The notes under the pieces were generated by a model that was not told the origin of the DNA, made no database searches, and worked only from the letters and a program-made list of their open reading frames with translations. Both the position numbers and the translations under genes were made by a program. Source: Cribrihabitans marinus (GTDB lineage Bacteria > Pseudomonadota > Alphaproteobacteria > Rhodobacterales > Rhodobacteraceae). From it: a DNA stretch of 64,000 nucleotides. Positions 14,013 to 19,338 of this stretch are shown here, piece by piece (position 1 is the stretch's first letter; each line of letters opens with the position of its first letter). Where the stretch lies: positions 434,001 to 498,000 of the forward strand of contig NZ_FNYD01000001.1 in the NCBI RefSeq assembly GCF_900109035.1, written 5' to 3'.

Positions 14013-15608
14013 ATGGTCGGTGTCCAATCCCTGTCCGTGCCGGCGGCGCCCTTGCTCCGCCTTGTCTGCGTGGCGCTGCTTGCGGCGCTGCCGCTCCATG
14101 CCGGCGAGCGGGTCGCCCTGCTGATCGGCAACGCGGATTATTCGACCCCGGGCATGTCGCTGCGCAACCCCGTCAACGATGTCGACGCGCTGGGCGAGGC
14201 GCTGCGCGGACTGGGCTTTGCCGTGACCGAGGTCACCGACCGCGACGGGGCGGCGATGGCGCAGGCGGTCGAGACCTTCGGCCGGGATGCGACCGGGGCC
14301 GAGATGGCGGTGTTCTTCTATGCCGGGCACGGGGTGCAGATCAGCGGCGAGAACCACCTGATCGGCACCGATTTCTCGGGTGGCGACCTGGGCGCGCTGC
14401 GCCGATCCTCGATCACGATGGGCCGGGTGCGCGACGCCATCAGCCGCGCCGGGCCCGAGATCGGCATCCTGATCCTGGACGCCTGCCGCAACAACCCGTT
14501 TTCGGAGCGTGGCCTCGTCGAGCGTGGGCTGGTGCGGGCGCGGGGCGGCGCCGGTCTGCTGATCGCCTATGCCACCGATCCGGGCAACGTGGCCTATGAC
14601 GGGTTGGGCGAGAACAGCGTGTTCACCGCGGGCTTGCTGGACCATATCGGCACACCGGGGCTGGATGCGCGGCTGATGCTGGGACGGGTGCGCCAGCAGG
14701 TGGTGCTGGAGACCCAGGGGCGGCAAGTGCCCTGGGTCGAGGAATCGGTTCTCAGCGAGCACAGCTTCGCCGCCGCGCTGCCCGCCGAGGAGGCGCCGGA
14801 CGACGCCACCGCGGCCGAACTGGCGCGCTGGCGCGGGATCGCGTCCGAGACCGATCCGGAGGCGTTCCGCGCCTATCTGCGCGACTATCCCGAGGGCCTG
14901 TTCGCCGGGTTCGCCCGCGACCGCATCGCCCGCCTGCAGGCCGCAGGTCCCGCCGTGGCGGAGGCCGGCGCACCGGTCGAGACGGTTCTGGCCGCAGCCG
15001 AAACCGACAGGATGGCCGCGGCCCTGGCGGCGCTGGGCCTGCTGGATCCCGGCCCGGCCCGCGCCGTGCCCGGCGAGCTGCGCCCGGCGCTGGAGCGCTA
15101 CCGGCGGCAGCTGCCCGAGCGCACCGAGCTGAGCAGCGACCAGCTCTACAATGACGCGGCGCGGGTCTCGACCTTTCTCGCGGCCACGACGCTGCAACGG
15201 CTGCGCACCGACATCGTCGCCCTGCGCAGCGTCGAACGCACGCTGGACATCGCCGAGGATGCGATGCGCCAGATCGAACAGATCGCCGAGACCGATCCCG
15301 CCGCGCGCCCGATCCTGCGCCAGGCGGAAAGCGATCTCTACGACATCCGCCGCTCGCGCGGGATCATCCTGCGACGGCTGGACCAGAGCCGCAGTTATTA
15401 TGACGAGATCCTGGCCCGCGCCGTGCGCTTCTTTCCCGAACGCGCCACGCTGGAACTGGTCGGCGCGACGGATGCGGGGCGCGACCTGGGCGCGGGCGGC
15501 GAGACCCTGACTCGCGATGCGGCGCTGTTTCTGCGGCACGTGGCACAAACCAACGAAACAAACGAGGGGAGTTACAAATGGTTGGCGGATCTCATTCCAC
15601 AAGAGTGA
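14013..15608 (+). CDS. Exported caspase-fold (peptidase C14) protein
   Basis: A 531-residue protein with a signal peptide (about 1-30, ending PLHA) and a caspase-like domain beginning RVALLIGNADYSTPGMSLRNPVNDV. The catalytic dyad is visible: His106 in FFYAGHGVQ and Cys158 in ILDACRNNPF. The C-terminal half (about 260-531) is helical and not recognised. Bacterial members include metacaspase-like endopeptidases, but the substrate is unknown here. It is divergent from the EutB-like gene. Its last 31 bases overlap the following lipoprotein gene, so the three-gene set is probably one transcript acting in the periplasm. Confidence 0.85.
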   Translation: MVGVQSLSVPAAPLLRLVCVALLAALPLHAGERVALLIGNADYSTPGMSLRNPVNDVDALGEALRGLGFAVTEVTDRDGAAMAQAVETFGRDATGAEMAVFFYAGHGVQISGENHLIGTDFSGGDLGALRRSSITMGRVRDAISRAGPEIGILILDACRNNPFSERGLVERGLVRARGGAGLLIAYATDPGNVAYDGLGENSVFTAGLLDHIGTPGLDARLMLGRVRQQVVLETQGRQVPWVEESVLSEHSFAAALPAEEAPDDATAAELARWRGIASETDPEAFRAYLRDYPEGLFAGFARDRIARLQAAGPAVAEAGAPVETVLAAAETDRMAAALAALGLLDPGPARAVPGELRPALERYRRQLPERTELSSDQLYNDAARVSTFLAATTLQRLRTDIVALRSVERTLDIAEDAMRQIEQIAETDPAARPILRQAESDLYDIRRSRGIILRRLDQSRSYYDEILARAVRFFPERATLELVGATDAGRDLGAGGETLTRDAALFLRHVAQTNETNEGSYKWLADLIPQE

Positions 15609-16279
15609 TCGCGGCGATGCTGGCCGCGGCAACGGCGCTTTCGGCCTGCGGCGGCGGGGGCGATACGGCCGAGGTCACGACGGTTCAGCCGGGCAGCAGC
15701 CAGGCCGAGGCGGATCTGGCCAAACAGGCCGCGGCGATGCAGAAGACCATCCTGCAGGGCGCGCTGGCCGGCGGCGCCGCGGGTGGGGCCATCGGCTTCG
15801 GCCTGGGCGGCAGTGACGATGCCGGCAGCGGCTTTACCATCGGGCTGGGCGCGGGCGCGGCGGCGGGCACCTACGTCGCCTTCGTGCAGCGGAAATACGC
15901 CAACCGCGAACGCCGCCTGGGCCAGATCAAGAGCGACCTGGACCGCAACGCCGCCGAGATGCAGACCACGATCAACGTGATGAACCAGGTTCTTGCGGCG
16001 CAGAAGGCGGAGCTGGACGCGCTGCGCGCCCAGGCCGCCGCGGGGGCCGCGACCCCGGAGCAGGTGCAAGCCGAAGTGACCGAGGCCAATGGCAACCTGG
16101 CCCAGATGCAGATCGCCATCGACGGCGCCAGCAAGCGGCAGGCCGAGTTCACCGAGGCGCGCGGCTTGACCGTGGCCGGAAACCAGGCCGCCTCGCCGAT
16201 CGATGGCGACCTGGCCTCGCTGTCCAACCAGATCGCGCAGATGAAGGGCATCGCCAACGACCTGGCGACGTCGCTTTGA
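15578..16279 (+). CDS. Glycine-zipper lipoprotein with coiled coil
   Basis: A 233-residue lipoprotein with lipobox LSAC (Cys24). Residues about 61-100 are a glycine zipper (GALAGGAAGGAIGFGLGG, then GLGAGAAAG), which would insert in or pack against a membrane. Residues about 105-215 are helical with heptad-like Ala/Gln/Leu spacing, suggesting a coiled coil. It starts within the end of the caspase-like gene (31-base overlap) with GAGGGGAG before the ATG. The next lipoprotein begins immediately after its stop. No known function; the context suggests an envelope complex with the caspase-like protein. Confidence 0.75.
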   Translation: MVGGSHSTRVIAAMLAAATALSACGGGGDTAEVTTVQPGSSQAEADLAKQAAAMQKTILQGALAGGAAGGAIGFGLGGSDDAGSGFTIGLGAGAAAGTYVAFVQRKYANRERRLGQIKSDLDRNAAEMQTTINVMNQVLAAQKAELDALRAQAAAGAATPEQVQAEVTEANGNLAQMQIAIDGASKRQAEFTEARGLTVAGNQAASPIDGDLASLSNQIAQMKGIANDLATSL

Positions 16280-16708
16280 ATGGGGACCGTGATGATGCGC
16301 CCCGCCCTGCTCCGCCTTGTCGCGCCCGCGCTCTTGCTGGCGGGCTGCCAGACCACCAGCGACCCGGCCGAGGGCGGGTTCTTCGACGGGGTGTCGGGGA
16401 TCGCCAGCGGCAGCTATGACGCCCGGATCGACACCGCCGAGGCCGATGTCGCCGGGGCCCAGGCGCGCAACGAAGCGCTGGCGGCGCAGATCCGCGGCTC
16501 GGAATCCGAGCTGGCCCAGCTCAAGCTGCAGATCCTTCAGCAGCGCAACACGCTGGGCACACCGGACGCGGCCACAGCGTCGCGCATCGACCGGGTGCTG
16601 AACGACACGCCCGGCGGGGCCACGCCGGATGCGCGGCTGGCCGCGCTGCAACGCTCGATCTCGGAGGCGCGCGCGCTCAGCGCCGACCTGGCCCGGCTGT
16701 CGGGTTAA
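16280..16708 (+). CDS. Small lipoprotein with helical repeat-like region
   Basis: A 142-residue lipoprotein with lipobox LLAGC (Cys23 from the first ATG; a second ATG at 16295 is equally possible). The mature part is largely alpha-helical with a coiled-coil pattern (AEADVAGAQARNEALAAQIRG, SELAQLKLQILQQRNT). It directly abuts the glycine-zipper lipoprotein and completes the caspase-like operon. Its last four bases overlap the convergent DUF6522-type gene. Function unknown. Confidence 0.7.
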   Translation: MGTVMMRPALLRLVAPALLLAGCQTTSDPAEGGFFDGVSGIASGSYDARIDTAEADVAGAQARNEALAAQIRGSESELAQLKLQILQQRNTLGTPDAATASRIDRVLNDTPGGATPDARLAALQRSISEARALSADLARLSG

Positions 16709-16986
16709 TCCCCTGCAGCGGGGCGCCGCGCGGCGGGAAAGCGCGACCGCTTGACGATCTCGCCGGCGGCATCGACCGTCATCCGCAGGGCCTGGCCGTC
16801 ATGGTAGAAGGTGAAGCGCCAGTTGCCTTCATCGGCCTCGACGCCCTTCTCGCAGACCGAGGTGATGGCCCCGGCGCGCATCAGTTCGGGCACCTCGGTC
16901 GCGGTGACGCCGAAGGCCTCGGCCAGAACCTGCGCGTCGACGACGAACTCGCCGCCGTTGCGTTCCACCTGCGTCATCCGCGTCAC
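16705..16986 (-). CDS. DUF6522-like small protein
   Basis: A 93-residue protein that resembles the DUF6522 family: FVVDAQVLAEAFGVTATEVPELMRAG, then EKGVEADEGNWRFTFYHDGQALRMTVD. It is soluble and has one Cys. It starts within the stop of the 74-residue gene (ATGA overlap, 16983-16986), so the two are translationally coupled behind nsrR. Function unknown; the NsrR context suggests a link to nitric-oxide or nitrogen-oxide metabolism (inference only). Confidence 0.65.
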   Translation of the reverse strand: MTRMTQVERNGGEFVVDAQVLAEAFGVTATEVPELMRAGAITSVCEKGVEADEGNWRFTFYHDGQALRMTVDAAGEIVKRSRFPAARRPAAGD

Positions 16987-17207
16987 CGCCAGTAATTGTT
17001 GGCCGCGGCGACGGTGGCGAAATGCGTGGCGACCACCTGGCTGGCCTCGATCAGCCGTTCGGCGTCTTCGGCATATTCCGCGCGCAACCGCTCGCGGATC
17101 TCGGCCTCGGGCTGGGTCATCTTGACCGCGACCCGCGCCAGCTTGACCGCGAGGTCATAGCCCTCGGCAGGGGTTTCGGTGATCAGGCTGGGCAACCAGT
17201 CGGACAT
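16983..17207 (-). CDS. Small conserved-looking protein of unknown function
   Basis: A 74-residue soluble helical protein (MSDWLPSLITETPAEGYDLAVKL...). AAGGAG stands seven bases before the ATG. It sits 42 bases after nsrR and overlaps the following DUF6522-like gene by four bases, so it belongs to the same transcript. Not recognised. Confidence 0.65.
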   Translation of the reverse strand: MSDWLPSLITETPAEGYDLAVKLARVAVKMTQPEAEIRERLRAEYAEDAERLIEASQVVATHFATVAAANNYWR

Positions 17208-17249
17208 GTCTCGCTCCTTCTTGTGCGGTTTCGCGGCCGGTATCCGCAG

Positions 17250-17666
17250 CTAGACGGAGACCGGCGCAGGCAGCGCGATATCGGCCAGGGTCGAGCGGTC
17301 GAGATCGGCCAGAAAGGCGCGCTCGGCCGACCGCAGCCGGACCTTGAGCCGGCAGCACCCGTCGATAGTGCAATCGGCGCCGCCGGGCCCGAAGCACTCG
17401 ACCAGCGCCTGCCCGGCCTCCAGCACGCGCACAACCTCGCCCAGGCGGATATCACCGGGCGGCCGCGTCAGAACCGCGCCGCCGCCCGCGCCGCGCCGGG
17501 TCTCGACGATGCCGGCCTGCGCCAGGCGCTGCATGATCTTGCTCAGGTGATTGCGCGACAGATCGAACTCGGCCGCCAGCTCGGCGGTGCTGAATCCCCG
17601 GTCCGGCGCGCTGGCCATGCGCATCAGCATGCGCAGCCCGTAATCGGTAAAGGATGTCAGGCGCAT
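17250..17666 (-). CDS. nsrR: Rrf2-family nitric-oxide-sensing repressor NsrR
   Basis: A 138-residue Rrf2 regulator. The winged helix (about 1-60, MRLTSFTDYGLRMLMRMA, then LSRNHLSKIMQRLAQ) is followed by the cluster-binding cysteines Cys91, Cys99 and Cys104/105 (ECFGPGGADC, DGCC), the NsrR pattern for a NO-sensitive iron-sulfur cluster. The ATG at 17666 gives the typical N-terminus. Two small genes follow in the same direction. NsrR represses NO-detoxification genes in other bacteria; no such genes (hmp, norCB) are visible here. An AT-rich upstream stretch, AATGGATATTGTAGATACC (17683-17701), could be an operator. Confidence 0.85.
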   Translation of the reverse strand: MRLTSFTDYGLRMLMRMASAPDRGFSTAELAAEFDLSRNHLSKIMQRLAQAGIVETRRGAGGGAVLTRPPGDIRLGEVVRVLEAGQALVECFGPGGADCTIDGCCRLKVRLRSAERAFLADLDRSTLADIALPAPVSV

Positions 17667-17736
17667 CCGGCGATCTCCGCTTAAATGGATATTGTAGATA
17701 CCTATTTCACATTCGGCGTATCCCGGCAAGGGGGCG

Positions 17737-19338
17737 TCAGAAGGACGCGGCGAACCCGGTCGCGTCAATCTCGATCATGCGCGGTCCATCGGGCGGCGCA
17801 TCCGCGCGCAGGGCGGCGGCAAAGGCTTCCGGGTCGGCCTCGATCCGGGTGAACAACATCCGGCAAGCCTTTGCAATGGCTTGAAAATCCGGCGGCTCCG
17901 GATCGCAGCCCACTACCGCCACACCGGCATCGCGCATCGACGTCTCGATCTCGCCATAGCCACGGTTGTTCCAGATCACGAAGGTGATCGGCAGCCGCTC
18001 CTGCACCGCGACCATCAGTTCGGGCAAGGTGAATTGCGCGCCGCCATCGCCGGCGAGGCACAGCACCGGCGTCTCCGGTGCGCCCAGCGCTGCACCGATG
18101 GCCGCGGGAATGGCATAGCCCAGGGCACCAAAGCCGGTGGCGGAATTGAACCAGCCGCCGGGCCGGTCGTGATCGTGGTAGAGGTTGCCCGCATAGGTCA
18201 GCTGCGTCGAGTCGCCCACCATCACCGCGCCGGGCATGGCCTCTCGCGCGGCCGCAAGGTGCCGGCACAGAGCGCGCATCGCGGGTCCGATCTCCTGCCA
18301 GGCGCCGGCGCGGGCCGCTTCGGCCCGGCCCGGCCCGTCGTCCGTGTCGGCCGTCCCGTCGCCCAGGTCAGCACGCAGCGCCGTCAGGACGGAACCCGCA
18401 TCGGCGCGTATCGCAAGTTCCGCCGGGTGGCGCGCCAGCTGCGCGGCGCTCAGGTCGACGCGCAGCAGTGCCGGCAGGTCCGGCAACCCGCCGAGGCCAT
18501 ACATGTCATAATCGGTCGGGCCCAGCTCGGTGCCCAGCGCCAGAACCAAATCCGCGCCTTCGATCAGGTCGCGCACCGCACGCAGGCTTGGGCTGGCCGG
18601 CACGCCGAGCGGATGGGCATGCATCAGGCCGCGCGCGTTGACCGTCTGCACCACCGGCGCATCGCAGCGCTCGGCCACGGCTCGCAGCGCATCGCCGGCG
18701 CGCCGCACGCCGCCCCCGGCCAGGATCACCGGGCGCCGGGCGCGCTTGAGCCGCGCCGCGATATCCGCCACATCCGACGGATCGGGCCCAGACGCGCCGG
18801 CGGCCGGTGCGGGATCGGTTGGCGTTGCAAGCGGCAGCGGCGCGACATCCAGAGGGATCTCGACATGCACCGGGCCGGGCCGCTCGGATGCAAAGAGATC
18901 AAACGCTGCATCCAGCGCCGGCGCCAACGCCTCGGCCCGGTCGACCTGCAGGGCCCGCAGCGCGACACCGGCGGACAGGCCCAGCTGGTCGGGCAACTCG
19001 TGCAGATGCCCCAACCCCTTGCCCAGGCTCGCGCGCGCATTGACGCCCGATAGCACCAGCATCGGCACGCTGTCGGCGCGGGCCTGGGCCATCGGCGTCA
19101 GAGTATTGGTCAGCCCCGGCCCGGTGATGACCAGCGCCACGCCCGGCCGACCGGTGACGCGGGCATAGCCGTCGGCCATGAACCCGGCCCCTTGCTCGTG
19201 GCGCGGCGTGACATGGCGGATGCCCGAGGCCGCCAGCCCGCGATAGAGCTCGATCGTGTGCACCCCGGGGATGCCAAAGACCAGATCGACGCCGCGCGCG
19301 CGCAACGCCTGAACCAGCCCCTCGCCGATACGGGTCAT
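17737..19338 (-). CDS. aruI: Thiamine-diphosphate-dependent 2-oxoacid decarboxylase, AruI-like
   Basis: A 533-residue member of the acetolactate-synthase superfamily. The N-terminal FGIPGVHTIELYRGL, RHEQGAGFMADGYAR (catalytic Glu48) and a C-terminal ThDP motif GDGGAQ...WNNRGYG are visible. The HTIELYRG pattern and pairing with an AruH-like transaminase point to 5-guanidino-2-oxopentanoate decarboxylase (AruI), which makes 4-guanidinobutyraldehyde in the arginine transaminase pathway. It starts within the transaminase stop (ATGA, 19335-19338). A different branched 2-oxoacid substrate is possible. Confidence 0.75.
   Translation of the reverse strand: MTRIGEGLVQALRARGVDLVFGIPGVHTIELYRGLAASGIRHVTPRHEQGAGFMADGYARVTGRPGVALVITGPGLTNTLTPMAQARADSVPMLVLSGVNARASLGKGLGHLHELPDQLGLSAGVALRALQVDRAEALAPALDAAFDLFASERPGPVHVEIPLDVAPLPLATPTDPAPAAGASGPDPSDVADIAARLKRARRPVILAGGGVRRAGDALRAVAERCDAPVVQTVNARGLMHAHPLGVPASPSLRAVRDLIEGADLVLALGTELGPTDYDMYGLGGLPDLPALLRVDLSAAQLARHPAELAIRADAGSVLTALRADLGDGTADTDDGPGRAEAARAGAWQEIGPAMRALCRHLAAAREAMPGAVMVGDSTQLTYAGNLYHDHDRPGGWFNSATGFGALGYAIPAAIGAALGAPETPVLCLAGDGGAQFTLPELMVAVQERLPITFVIWNNRGYGEIETSMRDAGVAVVGCDPEPPDFQAIAKACRMLFTRIEADPEAFAAALRADAPPDGPRMIEIDATGFAASF

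Follow-up and report, generated by a model that had tools for sequence, protein, structure and literature searches.

The window analysed here, a 64,000-nucleotide stretch of the Cribrihabitans marinus genome (contig NZ_FNYD01000001.1, positions 434,001 to 498,000), contains an operon of three genes on the plus strand (14013-16708) encoding an exported caspase-like protein and two lipoproteins, LP1 and LP2; the three are referred to below as the trio. The ORF listing and the sequence confirmed the three same-strand reading frames at the positions given in the original prediction, which was made from the sequence alone. The first gene (14013-15608), identified by its reading frame, Pfam match and orthologs, encodes a protein of 531 amino acids. 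Its C14 caspase domain (residues 33-245, 14109-14747) matched PF00656 with E 1.1e-34 and 120.6 bits against a cut-off of 21.4, and the catalytic residues His106 (CAC, 14328-14330) and Cys158 (TGC, 14484-14486) were invariant in all 18 aligned orthologs, in agreement with the predicted caspase fold and intact dyad. In these features the protein resembles prokaryotic metacaspases and orthocaspases. The best matches of its sequence among solved structures were chains of the MALT1 paracaspase, and a Foldseek search with a low-confidence AlphaFold model (eight sequences, pLDDT 58.7) also led to MALT1 and caspases. An apparent signal peptide was read from the sequence at approximately residues 1-30, and the protein is probably an exported, periplasmic protease. 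Residues 354-515 (15072-15557) form a C-terminal helical tail, delimited by hhalign comparison with the tails of TagR-like (FGE-sulfatase) proteins of Alphaproteobacteria.

LP1 (15578-16279) is a glycine-zipper and coiled-coil lipoprotein with the lipobox LSAC (Cys24), a Gly-rich stretch, and long helices in a low-confidence AlphaFold model (pLDDT 52.5), while LP2 (16280-16708, or from a slightly later start, see below) is a small helical lipoprotein with the lipobox LAGC. The lipobox pattern was found in all 17 aligned LP1 sequences and in 18 of the 19 LP2 sequences; in the remaining one (L083) the start call was truncated, and its cysteine was still aligned. According to the lipoprotein sorting rule, the residue after the lipobox cysteine is linked to membrane location; this residue was other than Asp in 16 of the 17 LP1 sequences. 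Neither lipoprotein matched a Pfam or NCBIfam family above cut-off. Below it, the NCBIfam model of TagQ (NF041250) was matched by 16 of the 17 LP1 members at E up to 0.001 (best 9.2e-11), the value for LP1 of the window being 9.1e-7 with 28.5 bits against a curated cut-off of 300 bits. The two kinds of lipoprotein named in the original prediction were thus recovered, and its proposal of a periplasmic protease encoded together with them is supported as probable.

The caspase gene and LP1 overlap by 31 nt (15578-15608). This overlap, also part of the prediction, is real and well kept, measuring 31 nt in 15 of 17 loci and 28 nt in the other two (in L089, L090 and L091 the LP1 start, in each case an in-frame ATG, was assigned by analogy with the other loci). 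A G/A-rich stretch lies directly 5' of the LP1 ATG in the 17 loci compared; in the window it occupies 15565-15571, within the 3' end of the caspase gene, and is a probable ribosome-binding site of LP1. Together, the kept overlap and the location of this probable site inside the caspase gene point to coupled translation of the caspase and LP1. The absence of a gap between LP1 and LP2, claimed in the same place, stands only if LP2 begins with the ATG at 16280. A GGGGA motif (16283-16287) is located upstream of the ATGs at 16292 and 16295. All eight orthologs compared have an ATG 9-15 nt downstream of the LP1 stop, and in five of them LP2 could also begin at an overlapping GTG (-4) or ATG (-1). 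Translation of LP2 more likely starts at 16292 or 16295 than at 16280, and the zero gap is probably a matter of start-codon choice.

Of 295 Rhodobacteraceae genomes (one per genus), 13 contained the caspase tail in full, although split into two pieces in G266; 12 had a clear LP1 (E 1e-34 or better), and these 12 also had a clear LP2 (E 9e-10 or better). The three genes were adjacent in every one of the 12 genomes with a clear LP1. When the caspase tail was used to scan GTDB contigs, it yielded seven loci, five in Ruegeria (L043, L044, L045, L047, and L049), one in Rhodobacteraceae bacterium Alg231_04 (L046) and one in a metagenome-assembled genome (L048). In all seven, LP1 and LP2 follow the caspase gene directly. 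At least one locus is common to both sets, as L046 and a contig of G217 are the same, judged by length. The trio is a conserved unit within Rhodobacteraceae, and the contrary expectation, that the three genes would rarely occur together, fails. Among 61 relatives, the full-length caspase, LP1 and LP2 were adjacent only in the genome of the window and in G013. Two more of these relatives gave weak LP1 matches (G004, E 7.7e-4; G030, E 8.0e-4), which were left out of the family, as were the LP1 matches in G090, G138, G194, and G214 (E 9.2e-5 to 2.5e-4) and the LP2 matches in G218 (1.7e-5) and G287 (6.0e-4). At E 1e-3 the tail model matched at least 145 of the 295 genomes, with eight candidates scored per genome; outside the 13 genomes, the matches among those listed were short and covered approximately the first 50-120 model positions, corresponding to a repeat found in other proteins. 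In G118, a tail-bearing caspase is accompanied by a short degenerate lipoprotein resembling the end of LP2, and no match to LP1 was found. In G266, the caspase frame is interrupted and LP2 contains a stop, indicating a decayed copy of the trio, unless the assembly is in error. In G107 and G186, the gene directly before the trio encodes a probable outer-membrane beta-barrel protein, judged from its sequence (L083:10594-11826 and L086:10672-11883, minus strand).

The trio is found mostly in genomes that also have a type VI secretion system (T6SS). TssB (PF05591) was found in 72 of the 295 Rhodobacteraceae genomes and in 11 of the 12 with the trio (Fisher P 9.5e-7, or 3.6e-6 without the genome of the window, with no correction for phylogeny); when G118 is counted, TssB is present in 12 of 13 tail-bearing genomes. 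The sole TssB-negative trio genome is G266, with its interrupted genes. In four genomes the trio is located in or beside a T6SS cluster. It directly follows the series FHA-TssK-TssL-TssM-TagF-PP2C-kinase-OmpA-M15 peptidase in G113, and is separated from the same FHA-to-M15 peptidase series by two genes in G013, while the distance from its caspase gene to TssB is 6.5 kb in G117 and 11 kb in G217. The T6SS genes of the relatives were named from BLAST clusters shared with T6SS genes of the window's genome, nine of which were named by Pfam. In the latter genome, T6SS genes of these families (by Pfam) and the trio lie on separate, unordered contigs, C26 and C20 respectively. T6SS1 clusters of roseobacters have been described as belonging to group 3, closest to H1-T6SS, with no tssJ and with a giant sheath fusion, TssCL (PMC9515649); in the T6SS cluster of the window's genome (L124, L125; G000:C26, approximately 79-96 kb), a protein of 1373 amino acids clusters with TssB/TssC and matches this fusion. 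A T6SS has also been reported for Ruegeria sp. ANG-S4 (PMC9515649), the strain of the trio locus L049.

A search with the LP1 profile matched 25 of 385 alphaproteobacterial genomes, that of the window included, and the neighboring genes were read, with all ORFs considered, at 20 LP1 loci outside Rhodobacteraceae from 17 of the 25 genomes. In 14 of these loci a gene for a TagR-like FGE-sulfatase protein lies directly before LP1, with an FtsX-type permease gene in 13 of the 14 and an ABC ATPase gene in 12. Pfam assignments of representative genes were Virul_Fac, VWA, ABC_tran, FtsX (below cut-off), and FGE-sulfatase, and in two such loci the LP1 relatives, which belong to other families, matched TagQ with E 1.0e-15 and 1.8e-20. 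A caspase gene directly follows LP1 in two loci, from two genomes of one genus, and neither arrangement was found in the remaining four (L150, L154, L165, L168). The two loci with a caspase represent a second pairing of LP1 with this domain: after a 4-nt overlap, the LP1-like gene is followed by a gene for a protein of 1034-1054 amino acids that, as read from the sequence, has WD40-like repeats and a caspase domain at its C terminus (L158:5833-8997 and L163:6072-9176, minus strand). In G195 (L094:8728-16898), LP1-like and LP2-like genes head a row encoding vWA/FHA, FHA, PP2C, kinase, trypsin/FHA, and ABC ATPase proteins, followed by a permease and an FGE protein. This genome lacks TssB, no gene of the caspase cluster was found in the stretch read, and it was counted apart from the trio genomes; its row may constitute a phosphorylation module separate from T6SS.

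The caspase of the trio and the FGE protein of these operons thus occupy the same place before LP1, and they likely share one C-terminal helical tail. For the comparison, the C-terminal 200 residues were taken from 18 trio-type caspases, that of G118 among them, and from 13 FGE proteins (all 14 except that of L164). Two hhalign runs gave a probability of 61.5% with E 7.8e-5 over 139 columns, and 83.1% with E 8.9e-6 and a score of 41.6 over 136 columns, the E-values being those of a single comparison. Control scores were 14.9 with LP1, 12.5 with LP2, 16.4 with the reversed alignment, at most 24.0 with 60 column shuffles, and at most 20.3 with 32 other tails. Taken with the position of both genes, the match suggests one kind of tail, placed before a TagQ-like lipoprotein, that carries either a caspase or an FGE head. 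Proteins that contain both a caspase and an FGE domain have also been described (33 sequences; PMC3501461). Unlike such metacaspase-FGE fusions, the trio and the FGE operons would use the two domains as alternative heads.

The reading that we favor, with moderate confidence, is that the operon represents a variant TagR-TagQ half of TagQRST, the T6SS envelope sensor, in which a caspase replaces the FGE domain of the FGE-type protein TagR (the gene order in the known system being tagQRST). In its support, sequence comparison provides the composition and conservation of the operon, its co-occurrence with T6SS, the TagQ likeness of LP1, the likely shared tail, and LP2 as a frequent companion of LP1 in Alphaproteobacteria. 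In Pseudomonas aeruginosa, TagQ is described as an outer-membrane lipoprotein, TagR as periplasmic, and TagS and TagT as inner-membrane proteins, all acting upstream of PpkA and Fha, and the response of the T6SS to damage of the outer membrane requires both TagQ and PpkA (PMC10482370, PMC11881912); for the local activation of H1-T6SS, damage sensing by the TagQ/TagR side is described as unresolved (PMC11881912). As in the TagQRST-PpkA-PppA-Fha pathway of H1-T6SS, the gene of the TagQ-like lipoprotein is here immediately preceded by that of a predicted periplasmic protein, and the T6SS has kinase, PP2C, TagF, and FHA genes. The trio differs from TagQRST in having, for the TagR-type protein, a caspase with PF00656 as its only domain above cut-off and no FGE-sulfatase domain, an extra lipoprotein, LP2, and no TagS-like permease gene in the stretches read around it. 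The alphaproteobacterial operons of the type Virul_Fac-vWA-ABC ATPase-FtsX permease-FGE-sulfatase-LP1(-LP2) share with it LP1 at the end, sometimes LP2, and likely the same tail on the protein preceding LP1, but have an FGE head rather than a caspase, and include ABC ATPase and permease genes. The original prediction, as far as it implies a free-standing module without precedent, is not supported, given the presence of T6SS in 11 of the 12 trio genomes, the TagQ likeness of LP1, and the TagR-like position of the caspase. Of the functions it had proposed, a role in envelope stress is compatible with our reading, in view of the part of TagQ in the response of P. aeruginosa to outer-membrane damage (PMC11881912), whereas a cell-death module standing by itself lacks support.

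If the operon is such a sensor variant, LP1 and LP2 would be anchored on the periplasmic side of the outer membrane and would hold the caspase through its tail. Damage to the envelope, or an attack on it, would release or activate the caspase, which could then cut a periplasmic target: LP1 or LP2 themselves, the periplasmic part of a PpkA-type kinase, or a T6SS protein on the cell-wall side. The cleavage would switch on the phosphorylation pathway of kinase and FHA proteins, and the T6SS would assemble. In this scheme we infer the outer-membrane placement, the sensing of damage, the feed-in to the kinase pathway, and cleavage as the signal. If TagS were absent genome-wide, something else would have to pass the signal on to the kinase, and a soluble protease would be an economical candidate for this role. 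A more specific version, tentative and on the whole doubtful, is an envelope 'inflammasome', in which an outer-membrane caspase held by TagQ-like lipoproteins would answer damage with a proteolytic cut leading to type VI retaliation; the caspase would then control a weapon directed at neighboring cells, and not cell suicide.

Several observations speak against a TagR-TagQ variant. Every match of LP1 to TagQ is far below the curated cut-off, and three of the 17 LP1 members also matched a YiaD-type glycine-zipper model, so shared composition may contribute to the likeness. The tail match was obtained by profile-profile comparison only, as neither tail HMM found the other family at E 1e-3, and with six random half-sets of the alignments the scores were 26.3-37.5 and the probabilities 12-69%. 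LP2 was detected by profile in 8 of the 20 LP1 loci outside Rhodobacteraceae (6 of the 14 FGE loci). No gene for a TagS-type permease came up in the stretches read around the trio, to which this search was confined. The Fisher test of the association between the trio and T6SS ignores phylogeny, and in 7 of the 11 genomes with both trio and T6SS, that of the window included, no link of the trio to a strong TssB match was observed (in one of the seven, G255, a weak VipA match with E 2.0e-5 at C1:1324 is about 28 kb away, and linkage is possible there). Finally, 61 of the 72 TssB genomes are without the trio, from which it follows that T6SS does not need it.

The lack of observed linkage in those seven genomes, and the presence of C14 genes in 20 of 72 TssB-negative genomes, speak for an alternative in which the operon encodes a periplasmic protease of stress or cell death that works with its two lipoproteins independently of T6SS and is associated with it through shared ancestry or mobile islands. 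We consider this unlikely: TssB accompanies the trio in 11 of 12 genomes taken one per genus, the trio of the only TssB-negative genome is interrupted, and the trio lies in or beside a T6SS cluster in four genomes.

Two further explanations keep the trio within T6SS and give it another task. As a structural accessory, LP1 and LP2 would anchor a TssJ-less T6SS at the outer membrane, and the caspase would trim the cell wall side or mature a component. The reported lack of tssJ in roseobacter T6SS1 clusters (PMC9515649) fits this proposal, and so does the situation in G113, where the genes adjoining the trio encode an OmpA protein and a predicted M15 peptidase. A clear LP1 is missing from 61 of the 72 TssB genomes, so LP1 is no general substitute for TssJ. 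Moreover, TssJ is a beta-sandwich, whereas LP1 and LP2 look helical in the low-confidence model, and on balance this explanation appears improbable. The location in or beside T6SS clusters in four genomes could also mean that the caspase is a T6SS effector and the lipoproteins are its immunity proteins. This we regard as very improbable, as the caspase has an apparent Sec signal, the ortholog alignments of the caspase, LP1, and LP2 show similar rates of divergence and not a toxin-like variation, and in 14 of the 20 other loci it is the FGE protein that precedes LP1.

Apart from these explanations, an anti-phage defence system was considered and set aside: PADLOC gave only a match of the caspase to a generic caspase model (25.7 bits, E 1.5e-6), with 10.6 and 9.6 bits for LP1 and no match for LP2. 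Next to the trio, on the minus strand (16705-17768), the window contains a row of genes for a DUF6522 protein, a hexameric tyrosine-coordinated heme protein (HTHP), and a regulator of the Rrf2 family nearest to NsrR, possibly a nitric-oxide-related set.

Proximity to T6SS genes is not limited to the caspase of the trio. The 72 TssB genomes contain 177 C14 genes; six C14 genes were found in the genome of the window (4.18 Mb, 33 contigs). Of the 177, 20 are located within 10 kb of TssB, with at most 1.1 expected, and 45 (in 29 genomes) within 40 kb, with 3.7 expected; this count used 99 strong TssB places and all 177 caspase places, assumed even placement, and dropped the weaker TssB rows (E 2.7e-10 and above, second VipA domains). 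C14 genes were present in 56 of the 72 TssB-positive genomes versus 20 of 72 TssB-negative ones (P 2.4e-9), the latter being a non-random choice from 223 such genomes, made partly from the list of tail-model matches. A second caspase gene was found at the TssA end of the T6SS cluster in G013, G217, G113, G005, and G007, beside ExbB/ExbD-like genes (named from the sequence) and also beside a gene of the OmpA cluster (G013:C1:1000-1006 kb, G217:C6:84-91 kb, L110, L109, L114). The word 'caspase' is absent from the main text of the roseobacter T6SS study (PMC9515649), and as far as open-licence papers were searched, no published link of a caspase with T6SS or with TagQ came up.

The functions of prokaryotic caspase homologs have been described as largely unknown (PMC3501461). 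In TssB-positive Rhodobacteraceae, many of these orphan caspases now gain an address, as they are located near T6SS genes at a frequency far above that expected from even placement. If it is true that in the trio a caspase domain replaces the head of TagR, the signal at this step of the pathway may be proteolytic or peptide-binding.

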